The position numbers and the translations under genes are program-made. A stretch of DNA of 64,000 nucleotides, taken from NCBI RefSeq assembly GCF_004010055.1, contig NZ_RQVT01000050.1, positions 186,001 to 250,000 of the forward strand. Direction: 5' to 3'. Positions 1 to 61,461 of the stretch are shown piece after piece (the first letter of the stretch is position 1; each line of letters opens with the position of its first letter). The notes under the pieces are model-generated. The model was not told where the DNA came from and did not search any database. It worked only from the letters and a program-made list of their open reading frames with translations. Source of the stretch: Psychroflexus aestuariivivens. GTDB lineage: Bacteria > Bacteroidota > Bacteroidia > Flavobacteriales > Flavobacteriaceae.

Positions 1-1380
1 ATGACTTCCGTCCGGATTGGTTGCTGCACTTACTTGTAAATCTTTATCTGTTGATTCAAAATCTATGCGTTTTGCTCCTGGTCTAATGTATTTACTAAAA
101 TGTGCCATGGTGTAATATAATGGTGTAAAGTAAACTTCATCCTGGTCCGGATCTACGATAACAGGTGCAACACACCAGTTTTCGAACCAGTTTGGTCCAC
201 CTTGACGGTTCAGAACCATGTTCCAATCTACCCAACCGTCTACCCAGTTGTTCATACAGCCGATAATATCTCTGGCATAGCGATAAACTGGACGGTATTT
301 TGGATGTAAGTGTTTTTGATCTTCTGGAGCCCAATCCCAACCCCAGTCAGTGGCTTCTTTTTGCCAGTACCAATCATCATTTTGCCATTTAGGGACTTCA
401 GCATCTACACATGCTTCTGTCTGAATCAAATATTTGTCTGGTGCTTTTTGGTGAGCATACTGCAGGGCTTCTTCAAAAACCTTAAAAGTACTTTCATACC
501 AATGTATTGCAGTACCATCGTAATATTTTGCATTTGCCTCATTTTTATACATTACATCTACCCATTCCTTTATGCCTTCTCTGTTCTGATCATAGCCAAG
601 TATTTTCAAATCTCCTTTCCCGTCTTTTTCCAGTTGAGGACCGAGATGCTCTCTCACAAATTCAGTCATTTCTTCTGGTGTATAATGCATGCTTTCCCAG
701 TTATTACCATTTCCGTGTGGCTCATTTTCTACCGTAAAGCCCCATATATCAATACCTTCAGATTTGTATGCATCAGCATATTTTGAAAAGAAAAGTGCCC
801 AAGTATCGTAATATTCTGGCTTTAACTTTCCTCCAACCCAATCGTTATTGGTTTTCATCCATGGCGGAGCTGTCCAAGGTGAAGCTATAATATTGAAGCC
901 TTCAGACGAAGTCGACATAGCATCTTTAATCATAGGAATAATGTCATCTTTATCCTCTTCAATTGAAAAATTATTTAATAAAGTATCTCCTTCTACTGGA
1001 GCGTATGAATATTGACTTAAAGAAAAATCACTAGAATTCATATGAGTTCTAGTTAATGAATATCTAGCTCCACTATCAGCAAAATAAGCATCAATAATTT
1101 TCTTACGATTTTCCGTACCCAATTGGTTTAACAAATAAGCTGAAGATTCAGTAAAAGAGCCACCAAAACCAGTAAAAGTTTGAAAGGTTTTCTTAGGATT
1201 TAGTGTAATTTTCGAAGTTGCTTCCTCCTTACTGAGTGAATCTAGCTTTGTAAGTTTATGACCACTTCTTGAAGTTTCTACAACTTCTAAATCTAAACTT
1301 TTTTCTTCTTTTATCTCTGCACAAGAACTAACCAGCATAAGCGCAAATAAATTTATAGATAAAATTTTCAAATTTTTCAT
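1..1380 (-). CDS. GH30 family glycoside hydrolase lipoprotein (partial, runs off left edge)
   Basis: The reading frame opens at an ATG at 1380 and stays open for 460 codons to base 1, so the C-terminus lies outside the window. The N-terminus is a lipoprotein signal ending in a SSC lipobox. The body has GH30 landmarks: FGGSFTESSA near residue 70, the acid/base Glu in VENEP (E220) and the nucleophile Glu in QTEACVD (E322), about 100 residues apart as usual in clan GH-A. GH30 members in laminarin loci act on beta-1,6-linked glucose (debranching) or as beta-glucosidases. It starts 22 bp after the GH17 gene and is the last visible gene of the glucan operon. Exact subfamily and linkage specificity are inferred, not shown. 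Confidence 0.9.
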   Translation of the reverse strand, partial: MKNLKILSINLFALMLVSSCAEIKEEKSLDLEVVETSRSGHKLTKLDSLSKEEATSKITLNPKKTFQTFTGFGGSFTESSAYLLNQLGTENRKKIIDAYFADSGARYSLTRTHMNSSDFSLSQYSYAPVEGDTLLNNFSIEEDKDDIIPMIKDAMSTSSEGFNIIASPWTAPPWMKTNNDWVGGKLKPEYYDTWALFFSKYADAYKSEGIDIWGFTVENEPHGNGNNWESMHYTPEEMTEFVREHLGPQLEKDGKGDLKILGYDQNREGIKEWVDVMYKNEANAKYYDGTAIHWYESTFKVFEEALQYAHQKAPDKYLIQTEACVDAEVPKWQNDDWYWQKEATDWGWDWAPEDQKHLHPKYRPVYRYARDIIGCMNNWVDGWVDWNMVLNRQGGPNWFENWCVAPVIVDPDQDEVYFTPLYYTMAHFSKYIRPGAKRIDFESTDKDLQVSAATNPDGSH

Positions 1381-1402: not shown

Positions 1403-2686
1403 CTAATGATTGAGCATTATTTCATTTTTAACTGGAGGAATATGCACATCCAGAAGTAGGTCTTCTAATTTTCCATCGTAGGTTTTTGTAATTTCATTTT
1501 TGTCACGCTTTAGATTTTCAAAGGTTTTTTTATCTACAGCATCCCATAATGCATATTTTGCTTTTCCATCTACGGTGAATAATCCAAAGTAATTTTCTGA
1601 TCCATTAGGATATTCAGCGTCTTTCCAAGGCTCATCAAAAGCTTCGAAATAGAAACATTTTGTTTTATTTTTTGTAGCCCATTCTCTCATTTTGTGATAG
1701 TATAAGGCTTGTTTGTATTCGTCTGTGGCTTTAGATCCTGCTGGACCATAATGCCTGTCGGAAAAACTGGCCCATCCGGTTTCACCTATATGAATTGGTT
1801 TTTTAATCCCTAAAGATTTCACATAGCTCGCCACACTATCATATTGTGATACTGCATAAGTTAATGATCTATTCATAACTTTATCGAGTTTTTCTGTATT
1901 GCTGAGCTTTTTTTCTTTTGGAAGAACTCCCCAAAATACAGGGTTATAATGCGTATCATGCATTGGATAAGTATGAATAGAAAGATAATCAACTGTTTCA
2001 ATAATTTCTTCGAGTTCTGGAGTGTGGTATTCGCTCTCTCCACCGCCCCATGATGCAAAATTGTCTGAGCTAGTAATCCAAAGATCTTTTCTTATTTCGC
2101 CCTTAGATTTCAAATCCTGAAGATGTTTTACCCATTTAAGAATAATATGTGGTTGAACGTAGTAAGCACTAGCCCATTTTACCATAGCTTCATTGCCTAC
2201 TGCTATAATTTTTACAATATCAGGGTACTGATTAGCCAATTCAACCGCACGATTTATTTCAGAAGCATTATGAATGCTACCTTCATTATGATTAAGTGGA
2301 AGTTCTGTCCAGGCATTTTTACAATCAATCCAAGCCCCAAGCATAACATACATCTCAAAATTATCGTCCTCTTGCTTAAGCTCTTTAATGGCTTTTAGAA
2401 TATTGGAAGCATGAGGTAGGCGAACATTATAAGTACGTAGAACGCGAATATCCATAGCATAAAGAATTTTCAAATCATCCTTAAGCTGTGAAATGGAAGG
2501 CTGAGAATCTCGTGTTTTTTTTCGATAACCTCCGTATGATATTGCTAAATAATCGGGTTTATTCAGTATTTCTTCAGCTGTTAAATTGCGTTTGTCTTGC
2601 ATCGATTTTTGCTCTTTTGTATTTTGTTGACATGAAGCCAGCACAACTACACTCACTACTAATAAAAATTGCATGGCTGACTTCAT
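1403..2686 (-). CDS. GH17 family beta-1,3-glucanase lipoprotein
   Basis: This 427-residue protein has a lipoprotein signal with the lipobox LASC (Cys19) and then one GH17 TIM barrel. The two GH17 catalytic signatures are visible: the acid/base Glu in AVGNEA (E166) and the nucleophile Glu in GETGW (E302). GH17 enzymes cleave or rearrange beta-1,3-glucan chains; flavobacterial relatives in laminarin loci are endo-beta-1,3-glucanases or exo-acting variants. A lipid anchor suggests the outer membrane or its periplasmic face. The gene lies 6 bp downstream of the GH149 gene and 22 bp upstream of the GH30 gene, so co-transcription is very likely. Endo versus exo mode cannot be told from sequence. 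Confidence 0.9.
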   Translation of the reverse strand: MKSAMQFLLVVSVVVLASCQQNTKEQKSMQDKRNLTAEEILNKPDYLAISYGGYRKKTRDSQPSISQLKDDLKILYAMDIRVLRTYNVRLPHASNILKAIKELKQEDDNFEMYVMLGAWIDCKNAWTELPLNHNEGSIHNASEINRAVELANQYPDIVKIIAVGNEAMVKWASAYYVQPHIILKWVKHLQDLKSKGEIRKDLWITSSDNFASWGGGESEYHTPELEEIIETVDYLSIHTYPMHDTHYNPVFWGVLPKEKKLSNTEKLDKVMNRSLTYAVSQYDSVASYVKSLGIKKPIHIGETGWASFSDRHYGPAGSKATDEYKQALYYHKMREWATKNKTKCFYFEAFDEPWKDAEYPNGSENYFGLFTVDGKAKYALWDAVDKKTFENLKRDKNEITKTYDGKLEDLLLDVHIPPVKNEIMLNH

Positions 2687-2692
2687 ATGGTT

Positions 2693-5600
2693 TTATTTTA
2701 AAATATTATCTTCTATCTGAACGTGAATAACTTTTATGTTTCCAGATCGATCAAAAACCTCTTGGCTTAATTCTTTAGACAAACTAAATCCATCTATATT
2801 TTGAAAACTACCATCGCTAAATTCGACCTCAACTTTATTTTGAGTAGAAATAGAATAAATTACTGGAATTTGACAGAAAGTGAAACCAAGTGAATTTGGT
2901 TGGAGTTGAAGTTTGTGTTTCTGATTATGGATATTCACATATCTAAAAACATGTTCCTCCTCCAAAAACTCTGTTTTTCTTAATAAATGTGGTTTAAACT
3001 GAAGCATTCCTTTTTTAATGCTTACACCCAACTCTCCAAATCTGCTAAGAATATCTTCTTTCACCTGACCAGTCATACCTGGCTGTTGTGCTCCTTTTCC
3101 AAGTGGTGTATGAGAGTATGGATCAGTTGGAAATGCTCCGTATAATTTTGGTGATTTGTGAACACCAATACCTTCGTTTATTTCATAATAATGTTCGAGT
3201 AAACCACCAATTATTTCAGCAGAAGCATTTGCATTTATTGCTTGAATACAGGTTTCTAAAACTGCTAGCTGAAGTTTTGATACCATGTGCCAATAAATCG
3301 AGCCTAAGCCTTCGTAACCGTAAAAAGTTCCTGAACGACCAGTAAAAGATTTATGATTGAAAACTTCTTCATAAACCTTAAGAATGTCATCGAGCTCTTT
3401 TTCTGCTAAAGCTGAATATTCATTGTTATCGAATGACAATAAAGCTTTTTTTAACTTCTTAGCATTATTGAAATTTGCATTAAAATGATAATTATTTTCT
3501 GCATCTTTTTCAATAATTTTTCGGTTTCCGTCTTCAACCAATTTTTGAAGTAATTCTGACGATTTTACTGAAGCTTCTGGTATATTATTACGCTCTAAAA
3601 AGCCTTTTAAATCTTTATTTGGATACAATAAATAGCTGTACTGATCTGGTCTAAACAATGCACTTTGTTTTAGAGCGTCTAGTAAACTTAAAGATTGGCT
3701 AGAATTCAAGTATCCAGAACTTAGCACAGCCACCTGTCCTTCAAGCATTTCAGAAAGGTAATCTATAGAAACCTTGTCTTTATTTACTGTCATTAAATTA
3801 TACGCATGGTATAAATTATCTGTACGTTTATTTGCTTCTATAGCATGTTCTAGATATCCTAAACTTGTGCTTATAAAATCACTGATTTCCCCAGCTGAAA
3901 TTTTAGTTTTACTACCTGAAAAACCTGACTTGTAAACTTCAGTTCTAAATAAGCTTGCAGCTTCACCAAGTTCATCTAAAATTTCTTTGCGCTGAGCATC
4001 ATTAAATTTATTTTCAGTTAAATTCTGGTATTTATCAAAAGTCACATGCATTTTAGAAAACATCTTAGACAATTCTTCTGAAACCTCATAGCTTTCTGAA
4101 TCATCAACGTTTTCAAGAACAGTTTTGAAAAATGCTAAGAATCGTCTTAGGTAAGACAATGTAACCATTGAAACACCATTGCCCACTAATGCATTATTAG
4201 CATCATTCCATTCTGGTCGCTGTGTATTCATCCAAATTCCAGCTTCTGGAATAAAATTTGACAGTTTTGCTAGAGTTGTAGATAATATTTTTTCAATAAA
4301 ATTGACATGAAGAATTTCACCTTTTTTATCAAATAGCAAAGCTCCGTCAGCACCGATTTCATTTCGTTTTTTACGAATTTTAGTGTCGGCATTGTGGTCA
4401 AATTCTATAGTATCTTTTGGATCTTCTAATATGTCTTGATAAGGTTTTATTTTATAAGGTACGTTAGCGTAAACAAATTGAGAATTACTGAATAATCCAG
4501 CTAAGCTATTCGGTTTATAATCTTCATAAAATTCTAAAAATTTAAGTAAATAAATAATTTGATGATCTCCCCAATAACCAATATAAGACCAAGGATCATC
4601 CGGTTCGATGGTTTCCCAATCAAAGCCATCTTTGGTCACGCGATATGGGTTGTAGCCATCAAAAGTTGTAGCGTTTAAAAATTTATAGATCATACTTTCT
4701 ATAAATTCAGGGTAGGAATGTACAAGACTTTCCCAGTTTTGAAAAATATCACGCCAGTTGCCTTCGTAATCTAGTATTTTAGAACCATCATCGTCTTTGG
4801 TGTTTATCGAAAATTGATTCCAAGGTCTACTTGGGTCGCCATGTCTGCGACTAAATTTTAAAGGTAAATACTCTATCGATAGTCGTGTAAAGTCTTCATC
4901 AGCAATACTAGAAATTAAACTTTTCAAATCAAAAAGAGAAAAAACTTCTGGTAACTCTTCAATTTTATTAACAAAACTGTTAGCTAATGGTTTGTTAGCT
5001 TTATTGAGGTATTTCGTAAAATCCCACTTTTCAATTTGATAATTATTGTCGAAAATACCACCACGCATAATATTGAACATCGTGTTTGAATAGTGGCGAA
5101 TATCTCTTAAATTGTCGTTAGATCTTTGGAGACCGTCTGCTGCTGCATTTAGCTGAACTAACTTTTCTGTACCGACTTTGATATCTTCTTCTAAATCACT
5201 TAAAATATTATCTTTCTTTATCTCTTTCTGAAGTTTTACTACTGATGCATGGTTGTAGTTTACATCTGCAATAATGTGCCAAGATTTTTTAGCTTCTGCT
5301 TCCAGACTAAATGTTTTGTTGATAAAATAAGCTCCCTTTTCTGCTTTGACATCATTTTCCTCTGAAATACTTTGGCCTGTTCTAAATTTTTCAAGTTGTA
5401 ATGAAGAAAGTAGATGTTTCGGGTTTTCGATACCTAAAGACCATACCACATTAGCTTTTAATGCTTCGCTAGGCTCTGCTTTATCAACAGGAACAGCACT
5501 TAACGCAAAAATCCCCAAGCCTGTTTGGTTATCGAGTTCACTTCGTTTATAAGCGTCTACTAAGTTACTGCTTTGGGTTTGCAAATCACTAACAACTCCA

Positions 5601-6139
5601 GCTGGCAGTACATTTTGAAGTCCATCTAAAACTTCTATTGAAATAGGTGAGGGATTCTGGCTACTGATTTGAGATTTTTTGATAAAACCATATTTATCGC
5701 TATTCGACCATTGGTAGGTAAAGCAAAGATTTAGACTATGATTTATTTCTTCAAAAAGAAGCTTATTACCATAGATGTTTTTGTAGATGTTTCTTGTAAT
5801 CTTATATTGCTCTACAAATCTATTAGAAAAAGGTTCCCAAAATTTGATTGTTTCATCAAAATGAATTTTGAAAATCGTCTTACTTCCTGTATAATGAGCA
5901 GATTCAGTAATCTTATCATCTGTGTAGTATGGAAATAATGCATACTCTGCATTTCTCCTTCCTGCAGTTAAGCCACCATTACTGGAAATAAACATCCAGT
6001 GGTTAGAATCACTAACAATACTCATAAAAAATGGTCGTAAAGCATCGTTATTAGTGATTTTTAAAAACTTTTCACCATGAAGCCTAACCTGTTCTAAGTG
6101 ACTTTCTTTAGAAGTTTGATTTTCAATTTTATTAATCAT
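2693..6139 (-). CDS. GH149-type beta-1,3-oligoglucan phosphorylase
   Basis: This 1148-residue protein has no signal peptide and should be cytosolic. Its length and composition fit family GH149, phosphorylases related to GH94 that convert beta-1,3-oligoglucosides plus phosphate into alpha-glucose 1-phosphate and a shortened chain. A WND motif typical of GH94/GH149 catalytic acids is present, with Asp at about residue 646, followed by a glycine-containing NALVGNG stretch. The neighbouring laminarin-type hydrolases support this assignment. A cytosolic phosphorylase implies that oligosaccharides, not only glucose, cross the inner membrane. GH161 is the main alternative family, but its members are shorter as I recall them. 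Assignment rests on recognition of length, motif and context rather than alignment. Confidence 0.8.
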   Translation of the reverse strand: MINKIENQTSKESHLEQVRLHGEKFLKITNNDALRPFFMSIVSDSNHWMFISSNGGLTAGRRNAEYALFPYYTDDKITESAHYTGSKTIFKIHFDETIKFWEPFSNRFVEQYKITRNIYKNIYGNKLLFEEINHSLNLCFTYQWSNSDKYGFIKKSQISSQNPSPISIEVLDGLQNVLPAGVVSDLQTQSSNLVDAYKRSELDNQTGLGIFALSAVPVDKAEPSEALKANVVWSLGIENPKHLLSSLQLEKFRTGQSISEENDVKAEKGAYFINKTFSLEAEAKKSWHIIADVNYNHASVVKLQKEIKKDNILSDLEEDIKVGTEKLVQLNAAADGLQRSNDNLRDIRHYSNTMFNIMRGGIFDNNYQIEKWDFTKYLNKANKPLANSFVNKIEELPEVFSLFDLKSLISSIADEDFTRLSIEYLPLKFSRRHGDPSRPWNQFSINTKDDDGSKILDYEGNWRDIFQNWESLVHSYPEFIESMIYKFLNATTFDGYNPYRVTKDGFDWETIEPDDPWSYIGYWGDHQIIYLLKFLEFYEDYKPNSLAGLFSNSQFVYANVPYKIKPYQDILEDPKDTIEFDHNADTKIRKKRNEIGADGALLFDKKGEILHVNFIEKILSTTLAKLSNFIPEAGIWMNTQRPEWNDANNALVGNGVSMVTLSYLRRFLAFFKTVLENVDDSESYEVSEELSKMFSKMHVTFDKYQNLTENKFNDAQRKEILDELGEAASLFRTEVYKSGFSGSKTKISAGEISDFISTSLGYLEHAIEANKRTDNLYHAYNLMTVNKDKVSIDYLSEMLEGQVAVLSSGYLNSSQSLSLLDALKQSALFRPDQYSYLLYPNKDLKGFLERNNIPEASVKSSELLQKLVEDGNRKIIEKDAENNYHFNANFNNAKKLKKALLSFDNNEYSALAEKELDDILKVYEEVFNHKSFTGRSGTFYGYEGLGSIYWHMVSKLQLAVLETCIQAINANASAEIIGGLLEHYYEINEGIGVHKSPKLYGAFPTDPYSHTPLGKGAQQPGMTGQVKEDILSRFGELGVSIKKGMLQFKPHLLRKTEFLEEEHVFRYVNIHNQKHKLQLQPNSLGFTFCQIPVIYSISTQNKVEVEFSDGSFQNIDGFSLSKELSQEVFDRSGNIKVIHVQIEDNILK

Positions 6140-6203: not shown

Positions 6204-7049
6204 TTATTCTTGTCTTAAGTCATCAAAATAATATATATCTCCATCACAAGGAGCGTCTCGTTCAAAATAAATTATGACGCTTTTATAAGTTCCTACATTG
6301 ATTTCTGAGAAGTCGAAAGTCAATGTTTGCCATTCTCCAACTTGAGTGATACTGGCTATTCTTTCCTGAAAAGGATTTACATTAGGAAAAGGCATGAATT
6401 CTAACCTAAGTGTAACTTCTGTAACTTGGCTCTGAGCAAGCACCTTCATTTTAAATATTTTGCTTGTATTTGGGTCAGTAAAATCTAAAGGTGTGTTTAG
6501 TTCTTTACCGAGTCCAGCAAAAGTTTGACAACCAGAAACTTTAATGAATTGTTCAACATTACAGCTAGAGTTTACATCATCTAGAATAGGGTTTGCAACA
6601 ATTTCACCAGAAGTATCTCCAAAAGCACTAAAAAGTGCAGATTCATTTTCAGTGAGAAAAGTCCAGTTGAGGTCTCCATTTGCAGGATCTAGATTTTCAC
6701 TAGTTTCATCAACACAAACAGGTACATCAATGGTAATAGTATCTTGGAAAGTACTTGAATTTCCATTATTATCATAGGCTGTCAGTATTACAGTGTAAGT
6801 ACCATTCTCGAATTCTTTCACTGGATTTATAAGATTAGAGGTTGAGCCATCCCCAAAATCCCACATGTAAGTGTTAGAGTTTTCAGAGATATTGATAAAA
6901 TTGATCGTCTGAACATCTATCGTAAATGTAAATCGAGCCAAAGGTTCACCTGCATCTGTTGAACCAGAATCATCTTCCTCACAACTCGTAAAAGTTATTC
7001 CTAATAAAAGGACAAAAAGTAAACAAATTTTATTTTCGAAAAATTTCAT
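6204..7049 (-). CDS. PKD-domain surface glycan-binding lipoprotein
   Basis: This 281-residue lipoprotein has its lipobox TSC at Cys23. A PKD domain follows at about residues 36-110, recognised by the WDFGDGS motif and the ending GTYTVILTAYDNNGN. The C-terminal part (about 115-281) is a jelly-roll-like module ending in DIYYFDDL, a pattern common in carbohydrate-binding modules. No catalytic motif is seen. PKD lipoproteins next to GH16 enzymes are common in flavobacterial laminarin loci, where they are thought to hold glycan at the cell surface. It lies 18 bp after the GH16 gene in the same operon. Binding to beta-glucan is inferred from context. Confidence 0.8.
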   Translation of the reverse strand: MKFFENKICLLFVLLLGITFTSCEEDDSGSTDAGEPLARFTFTIDVQTINFINISENSNTYMWDFGDGSTSNLINPVKEFENGTYTVILTAYDNNGNSSTFQDTITIDVPVCVDETSENLDPANGDLNWTFLTENESALFSAFGDTSGEIVANPILDDVNSSCNVEQFIKVSGCQTFAGLGKELNTPLDFTDPNTSKIFKMKVLAQSQVTEVTLRLEFMPFPNVNPFQERIASITQVGEWQTLTFDFSEINVGTYKSVIIYFERDAPCDGDIYYFDDLRQE

Positions 7050-7067: not shown

Positions 7068-7925
7068 TTATTTATAAACTCTTACATAATCTACCAACAT
7101 GCTTTGTGGAAACACTGTATCTTGATTTGGGTTACCAGGTAAATTACCTCCAACAGCCACGTTGAGTATGATATAAAATGGATTATCAAAAACCCATTCA
7201 CCTTCACCATCTGTTTCTTCAGCAACATCTTCACGAGTAAGTGAGTGGTAAATATTGCCATCTACATAATAATTTATGTATGACGGAGTCCATTCTACAC
7301 CAAAAACATGAAACCCGGTATCAAAACGATCATTTTGAAGTGTAAATTCTTTTGAAATTGACTCTGCTCCAGAAAATCCAGGACCATGTAAAGTTCCAAA
7401 CATAGATGCAGGTTCATCACCTAAATATTCCATAATATCAATTTCTCCACATTGCGGCCAAGGGTTGACGTTACAGTCATTTCCCAATAACCAAAATGCT
7501 GGCCAATAACCTTGTCCATATGGAACTCTAATGCGAGCTTCAAAACGTCCATATTGTTGTTCAAACAAACCTCTTGTAATTAATCTCGCAGAAGTATAAC
7601 TTGCTCCTTGATATGCTTCCTCTCTTGCTGTAATAATAAGCACTCCGTTTTCTACAGTTACATTCTCTGGTCGATCTGTATAATATTGTAATTCATTATT
7701 ACCCCAACCTGGAATACCTTGTGCAGATCCATCTCCAATTTCATAACCCCAAATGCTTGAGTCAGGCGTTCCGTCTTCATCAAACTCATCTGCCATAACT
7801 AAATTATTGAGTGTAGCTACTTCTTGAGTTTCATCTAAGTCACAACTCAAAGTCATTAATAAAACACACGTGAATAATGCTATTTTACAATGATTTAATT
7901 TTTTATTTAAAATTATCTTTTTCAT
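7068..7925 (-). CDS. GH16 family endo-beta-1,3-glucanase (laminarinase) lipoprotein
   Basis: The GH16 signature GEIDIMEY is intact, giving nucleophile E161, assisting D163 and acid/base E166 in the 285-residue form used here. The fold boundaries (LVMADEFDEDG near the start, VDYVRVYK at the end) match a single GH16_3-like catalytic domain. I chose the ATG at 7925 because it starts a clean lipoprotein signal (two lysines, a hydrophobic core, lipobox LSC at Cys28) and lies 13 bp after the upstream stop. In-frame ATGs at 7949 and 7970 would overlap the upstream gene. The enzyme should cut internal beta-1,3 bonds of laminarin-like glucan, probably at the cell surface. Confidence 0.92.
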   Translation of the reverse strand: MKKIILNKKLNHCKIALFTCVLLMTLSCDLDETQEVATLNNLVMADEFDEDGTPDSSIWGYEIGDGSAQGIPGWGNNELQYYTDRPENVTVENGVLIITAREEAYQGASYTSARLITRGLFEQQYGRFEARIRVPYGQGYWPAFWLLGNDCNVNPWPQCGEIDIMEYLGDEPASMFGTLHGPGFSGAESISKEFTLQNDRFDTGFHVFGVEWTPSYINYYVDGNIYHSLTREDVAEETDGEGEWVFDNPFYIILNVAVGGNLPGNPNQDTVFPQSMLVDYVRVYK

Positions 7926-7938
7926 AAAATTATTTATT

Positions 7939-9372
7939 TTATTGTTCATTATAGTAGTAAATATTATCAACGTATATATTCGAAATCGAATTTGATATAA
8001 AAAATATTAATCCAATTTGTGATCTACTAGATAGTCCATTAAAATCACTCAATGGAATATCAAAACCTCTCCATTCGTTTTGAGCTAAATTTGCTGAAGT
8101 AATTGTTACTGTTGCAGATGTTTCATTACCACCTACGTCATTAAGAAGTTGAAGTTGAATGTTGTCGCCCGCATTTAAGGTTTCATTTACGTTGAGGTCA
8201 ACATGGATATGTGTCATCGATGATGCATCAATGGTTGGTACATTCATAAACGTTCCAATACCAACGAAATTAAGGTTAGTATAATTAATAATACCGTTTC
8301 CGTCAACACTAAGATCAGCACCACCTGGACCTGTTCCACCTTGAGTTGTTTGACCGTCAGCATTAAAAAATCCATTGTAATAATCAACAGTTACATTTGG
8401 GTATGCATCACTGAAAATAGAGATCACATTTTCTGGATCTCTTGTAGGCGTAGGTGCAGGAGTGAAGTCTCCTAAGGATTCAATTGTAATTGAACCTTGA
8501 GCCTCAGTACCACCTAAAGTAGCTGTGATCTGAGATATACCTGCTCCAATAATATTTACTAAACCATTTTCATCCACTGTTGCAACTTCGACATCTGAAG
8601 ATTCAAATTCAAAATAAGCTGGAGCAGCATTAACAGTTACGTCTCCTTGAGCAACCGTATTGAATGTTTGTGTGAGTCCAGTAATATTGACAGTTCCCCC
8701 TATAAAATTTTGAACAACAACTTCTTCACCATTTTGAATTCTAGGTCTAGGTTGAGCAACTGTACCTAAACTTTCAAATTTTATTTCATCAATCCAAATC
8801 GTGTATCCCATACCATTTGTGCTTTGTGTTCCAGCTGAAAACAAAAACATTCCTCTTTCTTGAACTAATTTTGAAGGATCTGGTATAGGAAGTACGTACT
8901 TTTTCCAATCTGTTGATAATTGAAGATTAGAATTAGAGACAGGATATTTATCTTCAATAAAATCTGTCCCAAAGCCAGCTTCAAAAACTGCAGTTGTAGA
9001 TCCTTTTGCCCAAAACGTCAGTGCATCATAACCAGTCAAATCTCTTCCTTCGCCTCTATCTCTAAAAATGCCTCCTATGAAGTTTCCGTCTGAATCATTA
9101 GGAGCAGGAACATCAACTCTAATAGAAGTATTACCTAGGTAAGCTTCATTTTGATCCGTACCAAAACCATTTGTATTAGCTCCTACAGCTGGGTCAAAGG
9201 AAATGAAAAACTCATCTGTGAGTCCAACTGGGTTATCTGTAAAGACTTCTGCATTACTTGGGAAAGTTGCTGGTACGGCATCTTCAGAAACTTCTCTCTC
9301 GCAGCTTGTTGTAACTACGACTAACAAAAGAAGCCCCATTAATCGAGAATATTTTATTTTACTTAGTTTCAT
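7939..9372 (-). CDS. Multi-module surface glycan-binding lipoprotein
   Basis: This 477-residue lipoprotein has its lipobox TTSC at Cys24. Three modules can be seen. The first is an N-terminal beta-sandwich at about 48-205, with WAKGSTTAVFEAGFG and IWIDEIKFE, a galactose-binding-like pattern. The second is a bacterial Ig-like (BIG2) domain at about 220-300. The third is a C-terminal module at about 312-477 of the type often found attached to flavobacterial polysaccharide proteins, ending in IYVDNIYYY. There are no glycosidase motifs. It sits 19 bp after the glycosidase-barrel fusion, the place usually held by SusD or SusE-like proteins, so a role as the glycan-capturing partner of that barrel is a reasonable inference. 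It shows no SusD-like helical repeat character. Confidence 0.75.
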   Translation of the reverse strand: MKLSKIKYSRLMGLLLLVVVTTSCEREVSEDAVPATFPSNAEVFTDNPVGLTDEFFISFDPAVGANTNGFGTDQNEAYLGNTSIRVDVPAPNDSDGNFIGGIFRDRGEGRDLTGYDALTFWAKGSTTAVFEAGFGTDFIEDKYPVSNSNLQLSTDWKKYVLPIPDPSKLVQERGMFLFSAGTQSTNGMGYTIWIDEIKFESLGTVAQPRPRIQNGEEVVVQNFIGGTVNITGLTQTFNTVAQGDVTVNAAPAYFEFESSDVEVATVDENGLVNIIGAGISQITATLGGTEAQGSITIESLGDFTPAPTPTRDPENVISIFSDAYPNVTVDYYNGFFNADGQTTQGGTGPGGADLSVDGNGIINYTNLNFVGIGTFMNVPTIDASSMTHIHVDLNVNETLNAGDNIQLQLLNDVGGNETSATVTITSANLAQNEWRGFDIPLSDFNGLSSRSQIGLIFFISNSISNIYVDNIYYYNEQ

Positions 9373-9391: not shown

Positions 9392-12300
9392 TTATTTACC
9401 TATGTTGAATCTAATATATGTCATTATTTCCCATTCTGAACCATTTGGAAAGCCAACAGGACTTACTATTGGTTCAGCATTGAAAGATCCAATTGGTGTA
9501 GCGTTTGGAGAATATCTAGGAGAAAATTCATTTAAAGATCTCCAAATACCTCTAATACCAATTTGTGTGCTTGGTAAAATATACCATTCTGGCTTACCTA
9601 AAGTCGTAGATAAATCGAGCATTAATTGTAGAGGGAAAGTCAAGTTAAAATCTCTATGATAATCGAAAGGTCCCCAATCGTTTACTTTTACATCACCATT
9701 AATAATAAATTTTTTGTAGAAAACATTAATATTGGCACCCATTCTGTTTGTAAGTAACCTATCAGAATCACCTTGAGCTTGACCATTACCATAATAAAAA
9801 GAGCCTACCATTCCAAAATCAGGACTTAATTTTGATACTAATCTAGCGTGTGCTTCCCAAAGGTCTTCTGCTGGAACAGAGGTTCCAAAAGCAAAAAATT
9901 CTCTGGTGTCAAGAAAACCAATATGCGCATCCATTGTTGTTGGTAAATGTCTGAAAACAAAACCAGCACTCATTGCAAACTTTGCATCCTCAGCTTTATT
10001 GTTATCCCAATCATACATGTAAGTTCCAGGAGTAGGATCGTAGGTAAATAGAATTTCTGCAGCAGTTGTCTCTCTGTTTCCTCTTACAGCAAAAGGGTCA
10101 TCAATAACATTTCTTAAACGACCTGGAGCGTCAACGTTATTTGGCATTGGATCTACCAAAGGTTTTTGCCATAAAAAATTAGGAGCTATTTGCCATTTCC
10201 CAATGTTGTAAGTTAAACCTGTGAGAAAGTTGCTTTGGTTGCCGCTTCCGTTATCTTTCAGTTTCCATCCAGTAAAAGTTAAGGTTGGATCAGCTCCACC
10301 ATTTGCAACAAGTCCCATCACAGAACCTTGTGCGTACCAGTTAAATTTTCCTGCAGAATAAGTTAACTTCGCTTTACCACCCCAATTATCTTCTGAATTA
10401 ACTTTATCTACAACTACTTCTCCATTATCATTAATATCTTGATAGGTACTACCATTCAATGGTCTTCCTGCCCAAATACCTCCCAATGTAATTCCAAAAC
10501 TACCAAGGTCGCGTTCGAAAGCCAAAGTTGCTCTTTCAGTAGGCCATGGTGGAATAACACCACTTCGTACTTGATTTGGATCGAGAATTCGTCGGCCATT
10601 TTCGTCAAATTCTAAAGATGTTTCGACATCTCTGTGATAAATACCTGTTATATCCCATTTTTCTATAGTTTTACTATATTTAAAAAGCATTGTTGGATTA
10701 GCTCCCCACCACAATTGAGGACCAAACGCAGCTTTCAGACCGTCTAATTCACCTTTTGCGTCAACTTCTATTCCTGATATAACACCACCATAAATATCTA
10801 AATTTGGACCATAGTTAGCTTCAGGATACAAGCCGAAAATATCTCCTTCGTAACCCCAGTGATAATGACCTGTTCTATAAAACCCTCTTAAGTCAAATAA
10901 TTCGTTATTCCATTCAAATTCTGCTTGATAAAGTGCTACTCTATTAATATCATCTTGAATAATCTGACCATCGTTAGTTTGAAGTGTAACTGGTCTTGCA
11001 CGATTTTCATAGAAAATTTCGTTAATCGGATTTTCAGCAATCTCACCTATAATATTGAAATCGGCATTAAACCTAACATTTGGAGCAGGCTTTCCACCTA
11101 CGCCAATAAAATATGACTGCATTTGGTCAAATCCAAGTTGATTTGGATAAGTATTATCATCAGGGTTTGGATTATCTGGAGTAGTAATTAAGCTACCACC
11201 AGTATAAAATGTAGATAAATGCGCTGCAACTCTACTGATTTCAACTTTTTTAGCATTTCCACCTCCCATTGCTGCTTTATCTCCTCTAGCTTTTAAAACT
11301 GCATCCATCAAGGAAATATTACTAAAATAGTTATCGACAAAATCAGCATCGACTCCTTCTGCGTATGGGTCTAATTTATGAGCTTCTTTTAATGCATAGT
11401 ATGATGCACGTGGATATAAGTCGTACAAACCTCTTGCATTTGTAGCACCTTTTGCACAAATCCCAAACCATTCTTCATTCATATTATTTTCACCCTCTTC
11501 ATGGTCTCTGTCGTAACCTCCATTTGACCAAGATGCGTTGCTATCATGAACATCAAGGTTTTTGGTTTGTCCATACTTCCACCAGCCATCGCTAAATTGA
11601 AAAGTGAAACCACCTATGGAATTACCAGCTTTTCCAAGTCCGGCAGCATTTTCATAGATATCTTTCCAATTGTTTACCATGTAGTAAGCCTGAGATTTCT
11701 GATCTTCTTGATTTTCAATAGCATTAAATGCATCGGCTCCAAATTCTGTAAATAATACTGGTTTACCATAGACTTCTTTGATGGTTTCAAATGCATCACC
11801 AAAAGATTTTCCTCTATACATATTTGTTCCATAAATATCTACATCAGGACATTCTTCAGCAATAATTTCTAGAAATAGAACATCTCCGTTACAAATTGCT
11901 ACTGGTAATGAGCTGTTAATCTCTTTCATTTTAATAGCAGCTTCATTCATTAATCGATACATCGGACGTCCTCTATTCTCTCCAACAGCTTGTTTTTGAT
12001 CTTCTTCGTCAGGAAAATCCTCAGTTTCAGCGCCAGCCCAAAACAAACCGTAATTATTTTCATTTCCTAAAAGGAAAAGCAAAAGACCTGGTGTTCCTTT
12101 ATAATCTTTAGCCAATTTAGTGACTTCGGAAAGAAGTAATTTTTCGGTAGCAGGATCATCATATTTAGTAACTGGTGTCCAAACACCATCGATAGTCAAA
12201 CCGTATCTACCAAAAGAATGATTAAGCATTGTGTAAATGCCATAATTTTCATAAATATATTTTATCCATTTTGGTTGAATACCAGTATAAAGTCTTATTG

Positions 12301-12562
12301 TGTTGACTCCCATATTTTTGAGTAAACCCATCTCGGAGTCAAGGGCTGCTTTAATTACTTCATCTGATTGATTCCATAAACTGTAATTAAAATTTGTTCC
12401 AATAGGAAAATAATCCCAGTTCATACCGTTTACGATGAAGTCTTTACCATCTACCTGTAGCTTCATGTCTTGGTTTTCGTTTACAACTTTTACTTTTTGT
12501 GCTTGAGAAAAACTCAGTGATGTGAAAAGCAATAGTGTGCTTGCAATTAGAAATTTTTTCAT
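9392..12562 (-). CDS. Glycoside hydrolase TIM barrel fused to an outer-membrane beta-barrel
   Basis: This 1056-residue protein begins with a signal peptide (MKKFLIAS, cleavage near residue 20). Residues about 25-400 form a clan GH-A-like TIM barrel: NTIRLYTGI near 87, a putative acid/base Glu in LLGNEN (E168) and a putative nucleophile Glu in FTEFGADA (E273), 105 residues apart. GH2, GH5 and GH72 catalytic domains all resemble it and I cannot choose between them. From about residue 440 to the end the sequence changes to alternating amphipathic strands with aromatic girdles, ending MTYIRFNIGK, as in outer-membrane porin barrels. There is no TonB box or plug domain, so it is not a SusC. It leads the glucan operon. 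The enzyme part should face the periplasm. The fusion is seen directly; the porin function is inferred. Confidence 0.8.
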   Translation of the reverse strand: MKKFLIASTLLLFTSLSFSQAQKVKVVNENQDMKLQVDGKDFIVNGMNWDYFPIGTNFNYSLWNQSDEVIKAALDSEMGLLKNMGVNTIRLYTGIQPKWIKYIYENYGIYTMLNHSFGRYGLTIDGVWTPVTKYDDPATEKLLLSEVTKLAKDYKGTPGLLLFLLGNENNYGLFWAGAETEDFPDEEDQKQAVGENRGRPMYRLMNEAAIKMKEINSSLPVAICNGDVLFLEIIAEECPDVDIYGTNMYRGKSFGDAFETIKEVYGKPVLFTEFGADAFNAIENQEDQKSQAYYMVNNWKDIYENAAGLGKAGNSIGGFTFQFSDGWWKYGQTKNLDVHDSNASWSNGGYDRDHEEGENNMNEEWFGICAKGATNARGLYDLYPRASYYALKEAHKLDPYAEGVDADFVDNYFSNISLMDAVLKARGDKAAMGGGNAKKVEISRVAAHLSTFYTGGSLITTPDNPNPDDNTYPNQLGFDQMQSYFIGVGGKPAPNVRFNADFNIIGEIAENPINEIFYENRARPVTLQTNDGQIIQDDINRVALYQAEFEWNNELFDLRGFYRTGHYHWGYEGDIFGLYPEANYGPNLDIYGGVISGIEVDAKGELDGLKAAFGPQLWWGANPTMLFKYSKTIEKWDITGIYHRDVETSLEFDENGRRILDPNQVRSGVIPPWPTERATLAFERDLGSFGITLGGIWAGRPLNGSTYQDINDNGEVVVDKVNSEDNWGGKAKLTYSAGKFNWYAQGSVMGLVANGGADPTLTFTGWKLKDNGSGNQSNFLTGLTYNIGKWQIAPNFLWQKPLVDPMPNNVDAPGRLRNVIDDPFAVRGNRETTAAEILFTYDPTPGTYMYDWDNNKAEDAKFAMSAGFVFRHLPTTMDAHIGFLDTREFFAFGTSVPAEDLWEAHARLVSKLSPDFGMVGSFYYGNGQAQGDSDRLLTNRMGANINVFYKKFIINGDVKVNDWGPFDYHRDFNLTFPLQLMLDLSTTLGKPEWYILPSTQIGIRGIWRSLNEFSPRYSPNATPIGSFNAEPIVSPVGFPNGSEWEIMTYIRFNIGK

Positions 12563-12591: not shown

Positions 12592-12625
12592 CAAACTTAA
12601 AGGTTTTAGTTGTTAAATATTCAAA
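12592..12625 (-). promoter_or_regulatory. Candidate Bacteroidota promoter for the glucan operon
   Basis: On the minus strand 12599-12592 reads TAAGTTTG, an exact match to the -7 consensus TAnnTTTG. A TTTG that could serve as the -33 element lies at 12625-12622, 22 bp away, close to the usual spacing. The start codon of the fusion gene is 29 bp downstream of the -7 element. Confidence 0.55.
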
Positions 12626-15692: not shown

Positions 15693-18485
15693 TTACAATT
15701 CAAGGATATAATTTGTCAAGCTATCATTTCGGCTTAAATCCATTTTTTTTCGCAATCGATATCGCTTAACTTCAACGCTCCTTGTTGAAATATTAAATAG
15801 TGGTGCAATTTCTTTAGATGAAAGATTTAATCTCAAGTAAGCACATAGCTTAAGGTCATTAGGTGTTAGTGATGGATGCTTAGATTTTATTTTTTTCAGG
15901 AAGTCTTTATCCGCATTATTAAATGCTTCTTCAAAAAATTTCCAATCGTCAGAATTATTCAAATTACGGTTTATTACTTTAAGAACCTTGTCTAGCTTGT
16001 CGTCCTTAGTTTTGACCATCTTCAAATCACTTTTTATACCTGAAAGAAATTCATTCTTTTTAATTAAACTCATAGTAGAAATAGCTAATTCTTTATTTTT
16101 ATTCTCTATATCTTGTTTGAGTTTTTCATTATTAATCTTCATGATTTTCTGCTTGCTTTCTAAGTCTTTTAGCTCAAGTTCTTTATTGGCTTTTTCTTGT
16201 AGTTTACGCTTCTGCTTTTTATAATATTGTTTGTAGAAAACGTGAATCACTATTCCTAAGATTATTAGAACCAGTATATAAAATGCAATCATGAGATTAC
16301 TTAAATAAAATGGTTTTAAAATTGTAAATGAAAAGGTAAGGACTTCACTTATATTATTTTTACCGATTCTTGATCTCACTTTAAAAACATAATCTCCGTG
16401 TGGTAAGTTTTTGAAGCTAACTTCACTTTCTTTTTGCCAATTACTCCAATTAGGTGTGTAATTTTCGAGTTTATATTGATACTCTGTTTCAAAAGACGCT
16501 TCGAAATTGTATGAACTAACATCAAAATTTAGATTGTTGTTTTTATATTTTAATTCATGTTTATTAGTCAAACCAGAAATTACTTCATCCCATTTATTTT
16601 GTACACTTATAGAGTTAATAAACACCTCTGGCTTAGGTTGTGTGAAATCCTTCAAATTTAAAAGCTGGTATCCATTGCTATTTCCCAACAAATAAGTATC
16701 CGGATAAATAAGGCTAACATTCTCGTAGCCTGAAATTTGCTCACGATTTCCATGGTTTAAAGGAATATGTTCTATTATAAATTCATTTTTAACAGAACTA
16801 GGAATAAGTAAGGTAATATCAGTCTGAGAAAATACCCAAATCCTATCATCTTCAGTTTTAACCAACCTTCCAGAAGTATATGTTTCTGGATCATAAACAG
16901 ATGATAATTTTGCATTTTTTATAAAGGTTGAACTACTTTCATCGTAAGTAAATATTCCATTTTTAAAAGCATATAAAATTTTGTCCTGATATTTTATAAT
17001 TGAAGAGTACAAACCTTTTGGTACAGAGCTATCCTTTTTTAAATCAATAACTTCTGTTAAGTTTTGATTTAAAGTAAGTTTATAGACGCCCTTATATTCA
17101 TGGTTAACCAGGATAGTGGTGCTATCTATAAATTCGAAGTATTTAGTTGAAATATCAAAGCCTTTAACTTTATTGACATAGGTAAGACTATCATTACTTT
17201 CTCTTTTTAAAATGTGTAATCCATTATAATTTCCAGATATGATCGTTGAATCATTCGCCGCTCTAAACATCCATGTTCCTTGCAAGTTTTTAATGAGTTT
17301 TGCTTTATTTCCTTCAATCTGAAATGTCCCTACATTATGACCGCAGAGTAGGATGTTATCATGTTTAAATAATGACCAGACCTGACCTTTTGTACCTTTT
17401 ATAAATTTGAATTTCTTTTCTGAAATGTCACGATAAAACAAGCCTTGATTTGTGCCTAAATATATTGTATCCCTAAAATTGACAGAACAATATACCGTAC
17501 CAAGTTCTCCATTATCATCATTATAGATAGAAATACTTGAACTCTTATTAACACAATTAATACCGTTATCAAGGCCAAGCCATATATTAGAATTTTGGTC
17601 TTCAAACAAATTTAAAACAGTATTGTTTGTTAATGCATTTTCTTGTGTAAGTTGGTATTCTACTTGTTTATTATGCAGCTTTAGCAATCCGTGTGAAATT
17701 GTTCCTAAATAGATTTCACCATTGTCAAGTTGAATACTACTATAAATAGAAATTTTTGACCAAATTTCCTCGAAATTGTCTGGTATAAATTCCTCATTAG
17801 TTTCTAGATTTATAATTCCATTATACTGGGTCTGAGCATAAAGTTCATTGTTAATTTTGTACAAATTAATAAGTAAGCTATTCTTAAAAATTTCAGAAGT
17901 ATTTACAGCGACCTCTTCACCATTTACTTGTTTAAATATTCCCTTATTGATTTTATGATAATAAAGAATATTATCAATCACCACCATTTTGCTAATTCCA
18001 AAATTCGAGGTGATTATATCAAACTTATTGTCTAAAGTATTATAAAGATAAATCGAGTTAAGTGATTGAAAAACGATATAATGTTCAAGTTGATCAATTT
18101 TCCAAAATTGTTCGTCTTCTAATAAGTCAAGATCATTAGAAAGTGACTGGTATTGATAATCACCCAAACTGTCTTTTGTCCATACGCCAAAATCCATATA
18201 CGCTCCGCTGTAAACTTTATTTTCTAAAGCAAAAACAGACCGTAAAATTGTTTTATTAGGAGAATCTTTCAATTCCCATTTTTCACCATCAAATTTTAGT
18301 AAACCTTTGCTATTTGCAAAAAAAATATTTTTTTCTGCAGTTTGAGTAATAGACCAATTTTGATTATCAGCACCATAATCACCAGTCGAATATTTTGAAA
18401 CAGGCGGCAGTTCTTGAGCTACCATATTTGCTGTCAAGCATAATAAGAAACAGCTCTTGATAAGTAATAAAATACTTTGATTCAA
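15693..18485 (-). CDS. SusR-like propeller / Y_Y_Y / LuxR-type membrane regulator
   Basis: The product (930 residues from the TTG at 18485) has a signal peptide and a long region of beta-propeller repeats (motifs such as NIWLGLDNGIN and LYLGTNQGL). A triple-tyrosine domain follows (about 662-715, EYQYKLENYTPNWSNW), then one transmembrane helix (about 728-752), a coiled coil, and a C-terminal LuxR-type helix-turn-helix (about 873-925, with LRLNLSSKEIA). This is the SusR-like layout: periplasmic sugar sensing coupled to a cytosolic DNA-binding domain. I prefer the TTG at 18485, 10 bp after the porter stop, because it starts the signal peptide. The only upstream ATG (18620) overlaps the porter gene by 125 bp. 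It is probably co-transcribed with the porter and controls the glucan genes (inference). Confidence 0.85.
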   Translation of the reverse strand: MNQSILLLIKSCFLLCLTANMVAQELPPVSKYSTGDYGADNQNWSITQTAEKNIFFANSKGLLKFDGEKWELKDSPNKTILRSVFALENKVYSGAYMDFGVWTKDSLGDYQYQSLSNDLDLLEDEQFWKIDQLEHYIVFQSLNSIYLYNTLDNKFDIITSNFGISKMVVIDNILYYHKINKGIFKQVNGEEVAVNTSEIFKNSLLINLYKINNELYAQTQYNGIINLETNEEFIPDNFEEIWSKISIYSSIQLDNGEIYLGTISHGLLKLHNKQVEYQLTQENALTNNTVLNLFEDQNSNIWLGLDNGINCVNKSSSISIYNDDNGELGTVYCSVNFRDTIYLGTNQGLFYRDISEKKFKFIKGTKGQVWSLFKHDNILLCGHNVGTFQIEGNKAKLIKNLQGTWMFRAANDSTIISGNYNGLHILKRESNDSLTYVNKVKGFDISTKYFEFIDSTTILVNHEYKGVYKLTLNQNLTEVIDLKKDSSVPKGLYSSIIKYQDKILYAFKNGIFTYDESSSTFIKNAKLSSVYDPETYTSGRLVKTEDDRIWVFSQTDITLLIPSSVKNEFIIEHIPLNHGNREQISGYENVSLIYPDTYLLGNSNGYQLLNLKDFTQPKPEVFINSISVQNKWDEVISGLTNKHELKYKNNNLNFDVSSYNFEASFETEYQYKLENYTPNWSNWQKESEVSFKNLPHGDYVFKVRSRIGKNNISEVLTFSFTILKPFYLSNLMIAFYILVLIILGIVIHVFYKQYYKKQKRKLQEKANKELELKDLESKQKIMKINNEKLKQDIENKNKELAISTMSLIKKNEFLSGIKSDLKMVKTKDDKLDKVLKVINRNLNNSDDWKFFEEAFNNADKDFLKKIKSKHPSLTPNDLKLCAYLRLNLSSKEIAPLFNISTRSVEVKRYRLRKKMDLSRNDSLTNYILEL

Positions 18486-18495
18486 AAGATCAACA

Positions 18496-19875
18496 TTATT
18501 TTTCCCATATGTCTTCAAGTTCTTCAAGTGATTTATTTTTAGTTTCAGGTATAAATTTATAAGTAAAAATGATGATAAATATGATGAACCCAATGAAAAT
18601 GAAATACGGCAGTGAACCATTCCAAAAAGAATTCATATTGGTTTCGCTTTCAGAAATAACTGGAAAAAACTGTGAAACCAAATAATTAGTTGCCCACTGC
18701 GCTGCAACTGCTATAGACATAGCTGTACTTCTAATTCTATTGGGAAACATTTCTGACAATAATACCCAAACCACTGGTCCCATAGACATCGCAAATGAAG
18801 CAATAAAAAGCAGGACACCTATCAAAGAAATTATTCCTACACTTTCTTGTTGAAGTGATACGCCAAGCAAGAGAAAACCCGTAATCATACCAACAGATCC
18901 AATATAAATCAAAGGTTTTCGCCCAAACTTATCTACAGAAAACATGGCAATAAATGTAAAAACTAGATTAACCGTTGCCAGAAGTATTTGTTGCTGAAGT
19001 ACGTCATCTTTGCCAAAACCAAGCGCTTTTTCAAAAATATCTGCTCCGTAATATAATACAGCGTTAATTCCTGTAAACTGCTGAAGCATAGATAAAACAG
19101 TACCTATTATGATGATTGATAGTATTGTTTTAGAAAAGAAATTGACATTCTTCTTTTTTTTGTTTTCTTTAATTGAGTCGTTAATTTGTTTAGATTCTAA
19201 CTCAGCAAGTTTTTCACCATGTATCTTAACCAATGTCTTTTCAGCTTCTTCAGGTTTTTCGTTCAAATAAAGCCAACGTGGGCTTTTAGGAACGAAAAAT
19301 AATAAAATCAAAAACATGGTACTAGGAATGAGTTCTGACCAAAACATTCTGCGCCAACCAAATTCAATATTTTCAGCGACGCTCAAATTTTTCCCAATTA
19401 AATAAGTCACAAGAAAAACTATGAAAAAACCAACCACAATTGCCAGTTGATAAAAGGTAACAAGAATTCCACGTTTCTTAGATGGGGCAATTTCAGCAAT
19501 ATACATAGGCGCACACATGGAAGCAATTCCAATTCCTAAACCACCTAGAATTCTAAAAAAGACTAACAATGATACAGATTCAGGTAAAAACGCTGGCAAA
19601 CCTGAACCCCAAGCAGAAAGTGTAAACAAAACCGCAGAAATTATAAGTGCATATTTTCGACCTATTTTAGCACTTATGTATCCAGCGGCAAGTGCTCCAA
19701 ATAAACATCCAAGAAGCGCACTTGCAACAACCCAACCTTTCATAGTTGAATCCAAATCAAAATACTGACTCAAAAAATATTGAGCACCGTTTATCACTCC
19801 AGTATCAAAACCAAATAATAGGCCTCCCAAAGCTGAAACCGATGTGATTAGTATTAAATATAACTTCCTGTTCAT
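18496..19875 (-). CDS. MFS sugar porter family transporter
   Basis: This 459-residue protein has about twelve hydrophobic helices and the sugar-porter signatures: GGLLFGFDTGVINGA in helix 1, IGRK and FGRK in the loops between helices 2-3 and 8-9, PKSPRWL after helix 6, QQFTGINAVLYYG in helix 7, and PETKNKSLEE at the C-terminus. It is related to XylE/GLUT-type proton or facilitated transporters and should move a hexose or a small glucoside across the inner membrane. It is divergent from the alcohol dehydrogenase gene and lies directly upstream of the SusR-like regulator gene. Together with a cytosolic phosphorylase in the locus, it may carry oligosaccharides as well as glucose (inference). Confidence 0.92.
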   Translation of the reverse strand: MNRKLYLILITSVSALGGLLFGFDTGVINGAQYFLSQYFDLDSTMKGWVVASALLGCLFGALAAGYISAKIGRKYALIISAVLFTLSAWGSGLPAFLPESVSLLVFFRILGGLGIGIASMCAPMYIAEIAPSKKRGILVTFYQLAIVVGFFIVFLVTYLIGKNLSVAENIEFGWRRMFWSELIPSTMFLILLFFVPKSPRWLYLNEKPEEAEKTLVKIHGEKLAELESKQINDSIKENKKKKNVNFFSKTILSIIIIGTVLSMLQQFTGINAVLYYGADIFEKALGFGKDDVLQQQILLATVNLVFTFIAMFSVDKFGRKPLIYIGSVGMITGFLLLGVSLQQESVGIISLIGVLLFIASFAMSMGPVVWVLLSEMFPNRIRSTAMSIAVAAQWATNYLVSQFFPVISESETNMNSFWNGSLPYFIFIGFIIFIIIFTYKFIPETKNKSLEELEDIWEK

Positions 19876-61426: not shown

Positions 61427-61461
61427 ATTAAAATTTGAAAAGCAAAGCAAAACGATTTATT

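Follow-up and report, generated by a model that had tools for sequence, protein, structure and literature searches.

A gene at positions 9392-12562 of a 64,000-nucleotide stretch of Psychroflexus aestuariivivens DNA (contig NZ_RQVT01000050.1; the whole stretch is called the window) encodes on its minus strand a protein, here named FUS, in which a glycoside hydrolase domain is followed by a predicted outer-membrane beta-barrel. This fusion architecture was confirmed, and FUS represents a real and widespread two-domain family. The reading that we favour, and hold to be fairly probable, is that FUS is a port that lets beta-1,3-glucan oligosaccharides through the outer membrane and bears a trimming enzyme on its periplasmic side. 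The fusion, an intact catalytic pair, a barrel-type fold, a glucan-related gene neighbourhood and a partner lipoprotein were all established by computation. The protein is built as follows.

9392 to 12562, minus strand: FUS, 1056 amino acids, with signal peptide, GH-A TIM barrel, linker and 24-strand outer-membrane barrel (from the open reading frame, alignments, AlphaFold and hydrophobicity)
12497 to 12562, minus strand: signal peptide, residues ~1-22, type I, without a lipobox cysteine (sequence read by eye)
11363 to 12496, minus strand: clan GH-A TIM barrel, residues ~23-400, with E168 as acid/base and E273 as nucleophile; the closest relatives of solved structure belong to GH158 and GH157
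11243 to 11362, minus strand: linker with two helices, residues 401-440 (AlphaFold model)
9395 to 11242, minus strand: predicted 24-strand outer-membrane beta-barrel, residues 441-1056, with no Pfam match and no meaningful PDB sequence match

The open reading frame of FUS runs from 12562 to 9392 and contains no internal stop. The AlphaFold model of the whole protein placed a TIM barrel at residues ~22-400, helices at 406-432 and long strands at 441-1055, with a predicted local confidence (pLDDT) of 73 and a predicted template modelling score (pTM) of 0.49. An earlier reading of the window from its sequence, the original prediction, had proposed to look for a TIM barrel joined to a barrel of at least 16 strands; the TIM barrel and 24 strands were indeed predicted, with the closure of the barrel uncertain. 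The signal peptide claimed there was recognised by eye, as type I, and the residue numbers given for the two Glu of the clan GH-A domain proved right, E168 (in GNE) and E273 (in TEFG) both being invariant. Together with N167 they are unchanged in 81 of 81 aligned full-length sequences (the window and 80 loci), and both Glu are also invariant in a 57-row alignment. A strict count of the two motifs gave 60/81 while the aligned columns gave 81/81 for both Glu, a gap that reflects variation beside the Glu. FUS has the features of clan GH-A, namely a TIM barrel, an NE acid/base after strand 4 and a Glu nucleophile after strand 7, and its activity is predicted.

The C-terminal half had been described as about 600 residues of outer-membrane barrel strands, which agrees with the ~615 residues that we modelled as 24 strands with a collective amphipathic alternation. 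Residues 400-1056 folded alone (81 sequences) gave 24 strands with pLDDT 73.7 and pTM 0.73. The hydrophobicity alternation of the strands was 1.46 compared to a shuffled mean of 0.74 (sd 0.11), and 0 of 2000 shuffles reached 1.46; the TIM-barrel strands, used as a control, showed no alternation (0.79 compared to 0.88 when shuffled). Singly, only 4 of the 24 barrel strands reached p 0.05, so the alternation signal is a collective one. Twelve loops (mean 24 residues, range 7 to 36, four shorter than 20) lie on one side of the barrel, and 11 turns (mean 4.7 residues, range 2 to 20, with one 20-residue exception) lie on the opposite side. Amphipathic strands, short inner turns, long outer loops and a signal peptide recognised by eye, the marks of an outer-membrane beta-barrel, are thus all present. 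A Foldseek search with the barrel model returned 338 matches with E up to 0.001, and all 50 of the 50 listed were outer-membrane barrels, TonB receptors or porins; a profile of the barrel run against the PDB gave a single meaningless match (E 1.5). The original prediction had named a soluble beta-sandwich array as the structure that would speak against it. This did not appear, and we rejected it on the 24-strand model, the alternation and the fold matches listed. We likewise rejected a TonB receptor: the earlier statement that FUS has no plug was borne out by a Pfam scan with E up to 1, which found neither a plug nor a TonB-receptor domain. As the strand number is even and strand 1 is followed by a long loop, both barrel ends would be periplasmic, and barrel topology would in turn put the enzyme domain on the periplasmic side, unless it were threaded through the barrel.

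The fusion recurs in many genomes. Among 199 genomes of the same family, 61 matched FUS: 38 nearly over the full length, 6 as split or partial copies (G061, G062, G103, G147, G048 and G176, of which G048 ends at a contig edge) and 17 distantly. The 38 near-full-length copies showed 63-84% identity, the 100% match being the window genome itself. A scan of named genomes found at least 552 confirmed relatives; the 80 named loci used throughout are the best 80 of those, are skewed to close relatives, and are, judging by record titles and genera, Flavobacteriales. Alignments covered 29 of 30 loci (A1; L023 was dropped, its start being missing), 56 of 80 (A2) and 80 of 80 (A5). A barrel-only profile matched in 35 of 395 genomes of the phylum. 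In 33 of these the open frame was 1028-1084 amino acids long (G219 has an internal stop and G393 is truncated by a contig end), and the other two were fragments; the enzyme motif was present in 20 of 20 loci fetched from other families through this search. An enzyme-only profile run on 296 genomes of the order gave 36 matches, of which 13 were strong with frames of 1042-1082 amino acids, one was strong with a 472-amino-acid frame and 22 were weak. No complete barrel without an enzyme was seen in the barrel search of the phylum, and enzyme without barrel does occur. Many matches were labelled 'same phylum', that is, came from another class. In a plasmid collection, records of Persicobacter sp. 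JZB09 (60% identity) and Bacteroides finegoldii (55%) carry FUS over at least 98% of its length, and altogether FUS was found in at least three NCBI classes, represented by marine Flavobacteriaceae, Persicobacter and a Bacteroides species. An assembly artefact or a pair of genes fused by sequencing, the other outcome named beforehand as damaging, did not materialise; it was rejected because the fusion is shared by 38 of 199 family genomes, the best 80 named loci and 33 of 35 phylum matches, dozens of separate assemblies. At one locus in a single-contig genome (L187:8183-11328), a frameshift or a sequencing error has broken the fusion gene into two frames of 296 and 754 amino acids that overlap.

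The enzyme module appears weakly nearest to GH158 and GH157. A profile of the enzyme half run against the PDB ranked BuGH158, an endo-laminarinase, first (whole-sequence E 8.4e-5) and LaGH157 second (1.8e-4), with GH2 enzymes coming next from 0.0019, and the Foldseek list of the full FUS model was led by GH158 and GH157 and then by GH2 glucuronidases. FUS shares with BuGH158 and LaGH157 the clan GH-A fold and two catalytic Glu within aligned motifs; it differs from them in the weakness of the profile similarity, in lacking the Ig-like C-terminal domain and in being fused to a barrel, which stands where that domain would be, and we did not place it in GH158. GH158 is known from beta-1,3-glucan loci, which is also the setting of FUS, and GH157, like GH158, is active on beta-1,3-glucan. 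BuGH158 is reported to be highly specific for Laminaria laminarin and to require N136, E137 and E220 (PMC7157763). The relation to GH158 and the gene neighbourhood point to beta-1,3-glucan as the probable substrate of the enzyme half.

An assignment to GH2 was rejected. The GH2 TIM-barrel model PF02836 matched above its cut-off in 3 of 3 relatives scanned, whereas FUS of the window had no PF02836 match with E up to 1, and no jelly-roll or Ig Pfam domains of GH2 beta-glycosidases were found in FUS of the window, L058, L186 or L193. The single Pfam match of FUS with E up to 1 was a weak one to a 'glycosyl hydrolase catalytic core' (E 0.018, under the cut-off); in NCBIfam a beta-galactosidase model matched weakly (E 8.9e-5, far under the cut-off), and phmmer with the single FUS sequence gave no match in the PDB.

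Relatives of the enzyme half also occur by themselves. Fourteen aligned stand-alone enzymes of ~340 amino acids from laminarin loci are homologous to the FUS enzyme (hhalign probability 99.9, E 1.3e-33); they are 25-30% identical to it, lack the barrel, are mostly lipoproteins and have GH149 and GH17 neighbours in common with FUS. In 14 of 16 fetched loci (L171-L185 and L188; 15 of the 17 distant family-genome matches and one from the enzyme-only search of the order) the stand-alone gene adjoins GH17 near GH149. A profile of the set matched GH158 best in the PDB (E 3.7e-12), followed by GH2-type enzymes (9.6e-10), and these proteins near GH158 may form a separate glycosidase family. The GH72 model also matched 2 of 3 stand-alone relatives scanned, so both hydrolysis and transglycosylation are possible for the enzyme half. 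None of the 13 stand-alone relatives with a candidate lipid cysteine carries two acidic residues past it, consistent with a periplasmic location of such enzymes. In one further protein of 1092 amino acids (L189:15059-18334), repeated modules flank a diverged enzyme domain of 24% identity, and no barrel was seen by eye.

The occurrence of the enzyme half without a barrel, in most cases as a lipoprotein, makes membrane attachment itself seem favoured, and the FUS barrel could be there only to hold a glucanase in the outer membrane without transporting glucan. We consider this unlikely: 24 strands would go far beyond what anchoring needs, a lipid anchor would be cheaper and is apparently what most stand-alone relatives use, and conservation is alike in barrel and enzyme (column means of 0.79 and 0.80, respectively). 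The loci without SusC/SusD described below (40 of 64, one with another TonB receptor) would, moreover, be left with no adjacent glucan port. We give rather less weight to surface display, in which the enzyme domain would pass outward as in an autotransporter and act on polysaccharide at the cell surface. An N-terminal passenger with a C-terminal barrel is the autotransporter order; however, autotransporter barrels have 12 strands in ~300 residues compared to 24 in ~615 for FUS, and no autotransporter Pfam match was found in FUS with E up to 1, so that the C-terminal 12-strand domain of a classical autotransporter is absent. Display is also disfavoured by the GH16 with a surface-type signal already in the locus and by the missing export-type acidic residues in the 13 stand-alone relatives just mentioned, although BuGH158 is predicted to be a cell-surface enzyme (PMC7157763).

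The other genes around FUS in the window are listed below.

1 to 1380, minus strand: GH30, truncated at the window edge
1403 to 2686, minus strand: GH17 lipoprotein (Pfam)
2693 to 6139, minus strand: GH149 1,3-beta-glucan phosphorylase (NCBIfam NF058639, 1793 bits compared to a cut-off of 1150)
6204 to 7049, minus strand: PKD-domain lipoprotein (Pfam)
7068 to 7970, minus strand: GH16 lipoprotein, putative surface endo-beta-1,3-glucanase (Pfam)
7939 to 9372, minus strand: partner lipoprotein, called Lipo, with weak Big/CBM-like matches and acidic residues past the lipid cysteine (Pfam, named-locus comparison)
12592 to 12625, minus strand: weak Bacteroidetes promoter-consensus match, ~30 bp before the FUS start codon
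13046 to 15319, minus strand: GH3 beta-glucosidase (Pfam)
15693 to 18620, minus strand: Y_Y_Y/LuxR-type regulator, called REG (Pfam)
18496 to 19875, minus strand: sugar-porter transporter of the major facilitator superfamily (MFS; Pfam, NCBIfam)

FUS is the first gene of a tightly packed block, as the original prediction had it for the beta-glucan genes, with ~20 bp to the next gene and the order Lipo, GH16, PKD lipoprotein, GH149, GH17 and GH30. Upstream on the same strand lie the GH3, regulator and MFS genes, with 483 bp between GH3 and FUS. The promoter consensus had 9 matches in the window compared to 7.5 expected, no excess over chance. The regulator and MFS frames (15693-19875) overlap by 125 bp as listed, and the true start of the regulator is probably further downstream.

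This setting is largely retained among the relatives. Lipo directly follows FUS wherever a named locus has a downstream gene (77 of 77), and does so in 19 of 20 other-family loci; gene families were defined as single-linkage blastp clusters, and 'Lipo' is therefore a broad group. The downstream flank was complete in 65 named loci; of these, GH16 was found in 65, GH149 in 57, GH17 in 57, GH30 in 42, and GH149 or GH3 in 64; among the 20 other-family loci, GH16 was found in 19 and GH149 in 17. In Persicobacter only Lipo and GH16 accompany FUS within 27 kb (blastp), and the B. finegoldii block consists of a DUF6377 gene, FUS, Lipo, GH16, two more proteins and GH3. The B. finegoldii record (L193:9937-20594) has no annotated SusC/SusD pair and is labelled as a plasmid; it is probably a piece of chromosome, because valine tRNA ligase and rpsA are present on it.

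Surface lipoproteins of Bacteroidetes are described as bearing an export signal (PMC5080379). This signal is acidic. Among lipoproteins recognised by our own lipobox pattern (58 of 77 Lipo, 56 of 76 GH16 and 36 of 67 GH17), two or more acidic residues past the cysteine were found in 46 of 58 Lipo, 49 of 56 GH16 and 15 of 18 SusD, the control, and in 3 of 36 GH17, 0 of 6 GH3 and 6 of 21 GH30. The pattern of acidic residues suggests that glucan would be captured and cut outside the cell and digested further inside. A pore for glucan export or synthesis, comparable to the TPR (tetratricopeptide repeat)-barrel exopolysaccharide secretins, which reportedly likewise pair a hydrolase with a barrel, is very improbable: no glycosyltransferase or synthase was found among ten window genes scanned around FUS, and the neighbours (GH149, GH17, GH16, GH3 and GH30) are catabolic.

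FUS was said to stand in the place of SusC, and this part of the original prediction held only in some loci. FUS is not a strict substitute for SusC. In the 64 named loci with a full 10 kb upstream, the SusC/SusD pair (SusCD) was found in 24, and 40 had no SusC or SusD match (pairs were counted on the same strand only, so L065, with a SusC match on the opposite strand, was scored as without). Among the 40 is L101, where a TonB receptor of 1012 amino acids with an STN domain, unlike the SusC of other loci, lies directly upstream of FUS (L101:6114-9149). The 40 loci hold 43 unlabelled same-strand upstream open frames of at least 430 amino acids, of which 9 were scanned with Pfam and 1, that of L101, was a TonB receptor. 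No SusC or SusD was found by blastp near FUS in 20 other-family loci, and Pfam scans of nine large unlabelled frames from L151-L170 found no TonB receptor or plug. Searching homologues for a replacement of SusC/SusD, as proposed earlier, thus showed the same fusion recurring; replacement would fit the window genome and the 40 of 64 named loci with no SusC/SusD match, one of which has the TonB receptor of L101, and the other 24 have both.

In the window genome two SusD genes exceeded the cut-off, which makes two SusCD pairs, both away from the beta-glucan genes. One is in a maltose/starch-like locus, as read by eye, and the other lies beside ribosomal genes; no glucan-enzyme match was found within 19.5 kb around either pair. 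This search for SusCD elsewhere in a genome covered the window genome. The coexistence of both systems in 24 loci and the upstream TonB receptor of L101 would suit an auxiliary port, with FUS importing short products and SusCD long ones, so that FUS would complement SusCD rather than replace it. We give this little credence, since 40 of 64 named and 20 of 20 other-family loci lack a nearby SusC/SusD match, even though the check for pairs elsewhere concerns the window genome. At L186:9276-10631 the gene encodes a 452-amino-acid version with the enzyme half only, ending in the linker just before GH149; SusC and SusD are present there, and the usual downstream Lipo and GH16 are missing. This single case fits the barrel being dispensable where SusCD is present.

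FUS resembles SusC/SusD in being a big outer-membrane barrel in a glycan locus with an adjoining lipoprotein partner and a surface-type glycoside hydrolase. It differs in lacking the plug, the carboxypeptidase-like domain and any TonB-receptor Pfam match, and in carrying a glycosidase. The plug model PF07715 had no match in FUS with E up to 1 and did match SusC of the neighbouring-type locus L031, and no SusD match was found in the partner lipoproteins of the window, L193 and L058. A SusC-type barrel has 22 strands, compared to 24 in the FUS model (mean pLDDT 73.7).

We infer the pore activity, sidedness and substrate of FUS, and with them the following sequence of steps. The surface GH16 would cleave laminarin-type glucan, and Lipo, judging from its acidic export-type signals and the gene order, may keep the glucan close to the pore. 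Oligosaccharides would then traverse the 24-strand barrel, and the N-terminal GH-A domain, periplasmic by topology, would cut or transglycosylate them as they emerge and so prevent their back-diffusion; this trimming at the pore exit could draw the flux without TonB. Periplasmic GH17, GH3 and GH30 would complete the digestion, the MFS carrier would import the sugars and GH149 would phosphorolyse the remainder, as their families suggest.

Several points weigh against this port model. The full-length model has a pTM of 0.49, which leaves the placement of the enzyme relative to the barrel unfixed, and the Foldseek query TM-scores of the barrel were only 0.22-0.36, with no close match, so lumen size as well as closure is uncertain. 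The tie to GH158 is weak: no individual stretch of the BuGH158 match reaches significance by itself, and the full-length FUS profile ranks a GH2 beta-galactosidase first in the PDB (E 0.0037). FUS may be accessory, given the 24 of 64 loci that keep SusCD beside it and the other TonB receptor of L101. So large a barrel, for which no energy source is apparent, would have to work by diffusion, which is unusual for glycan uptake in Bacteroidota. The broadest form of the model is a TonB-independent 24-strand pore that forms a second glycan route of Bacteroidota beside SusCD, pulls glucan in by cutting at the exit, has a surface lipoprotein in the role of SusD and has been hidden under the label 'GH2'. 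We put this forward tentatively, at somewhat less than an even chance.

Laminarin is among the largest marine carbon flows, Bacteroidota are among its leading consumers, and its uptake by them has been described chiefly via TonB-dependent SusCD. If the port model is true, a conserved pore-enzyme fusion in many SusCD-less laminarin loci would be a different entry route for glucan; FUS may import beta-1,3-glucan, which many algae store, without the usual SusC/SusD pump. We could not find the FUS architecture described: literature searches for an enzyme-porin fusion, which covered few subscription journals and no preprints and are no proof of absence, yielded no description that we recognised among the papers listed. 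A comparable design is FbGH17B of Formosa laminarin loci, an inner-membrane fusion of GH17 and an MFS transporter; its authors state that, to their knowledge, a transporter-CAZyme (carbohydrate-active enzyme) fusion of that kind was undescribed in other bacteria (PMC6246565). It has in common with FUS a hydrolase and a transporter in one polypeptide, the same kind of locus and the same proposed benefit; it differs in being an inner-membrane MFS protein with C-terminal GH17, whereas in FUS an N-terminal GH-A enzyme is joined to a barrel of the outer membrane.

FUS has probably been recorded under another name. The B. finegoldii copy is annotated as 'glycoside hydrolase family 2 TIM barrel-domain containing protein', and a 2026 paper on Muricauda laminarin loci places a 'GH2 beta-glycosidase' upstream (PMC13188888). 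At L058, whose strain and accession appear in that paper, a scan of ten genes gave a GH2-type Pfam match (32 bits) for FUS alone, and the 'GH2' of the paper is therefore very probably FUS. The public label 'GH2', in one record and probably also in the Muricauda paper, thus covers a different kind of protein. Elsewhere in the window, an 807-amino-acid protein encoded at positions 61435-63858 combines DUF285 repeats with DUF7619 and a tail for type IX secretion (Por_Secre_tail).

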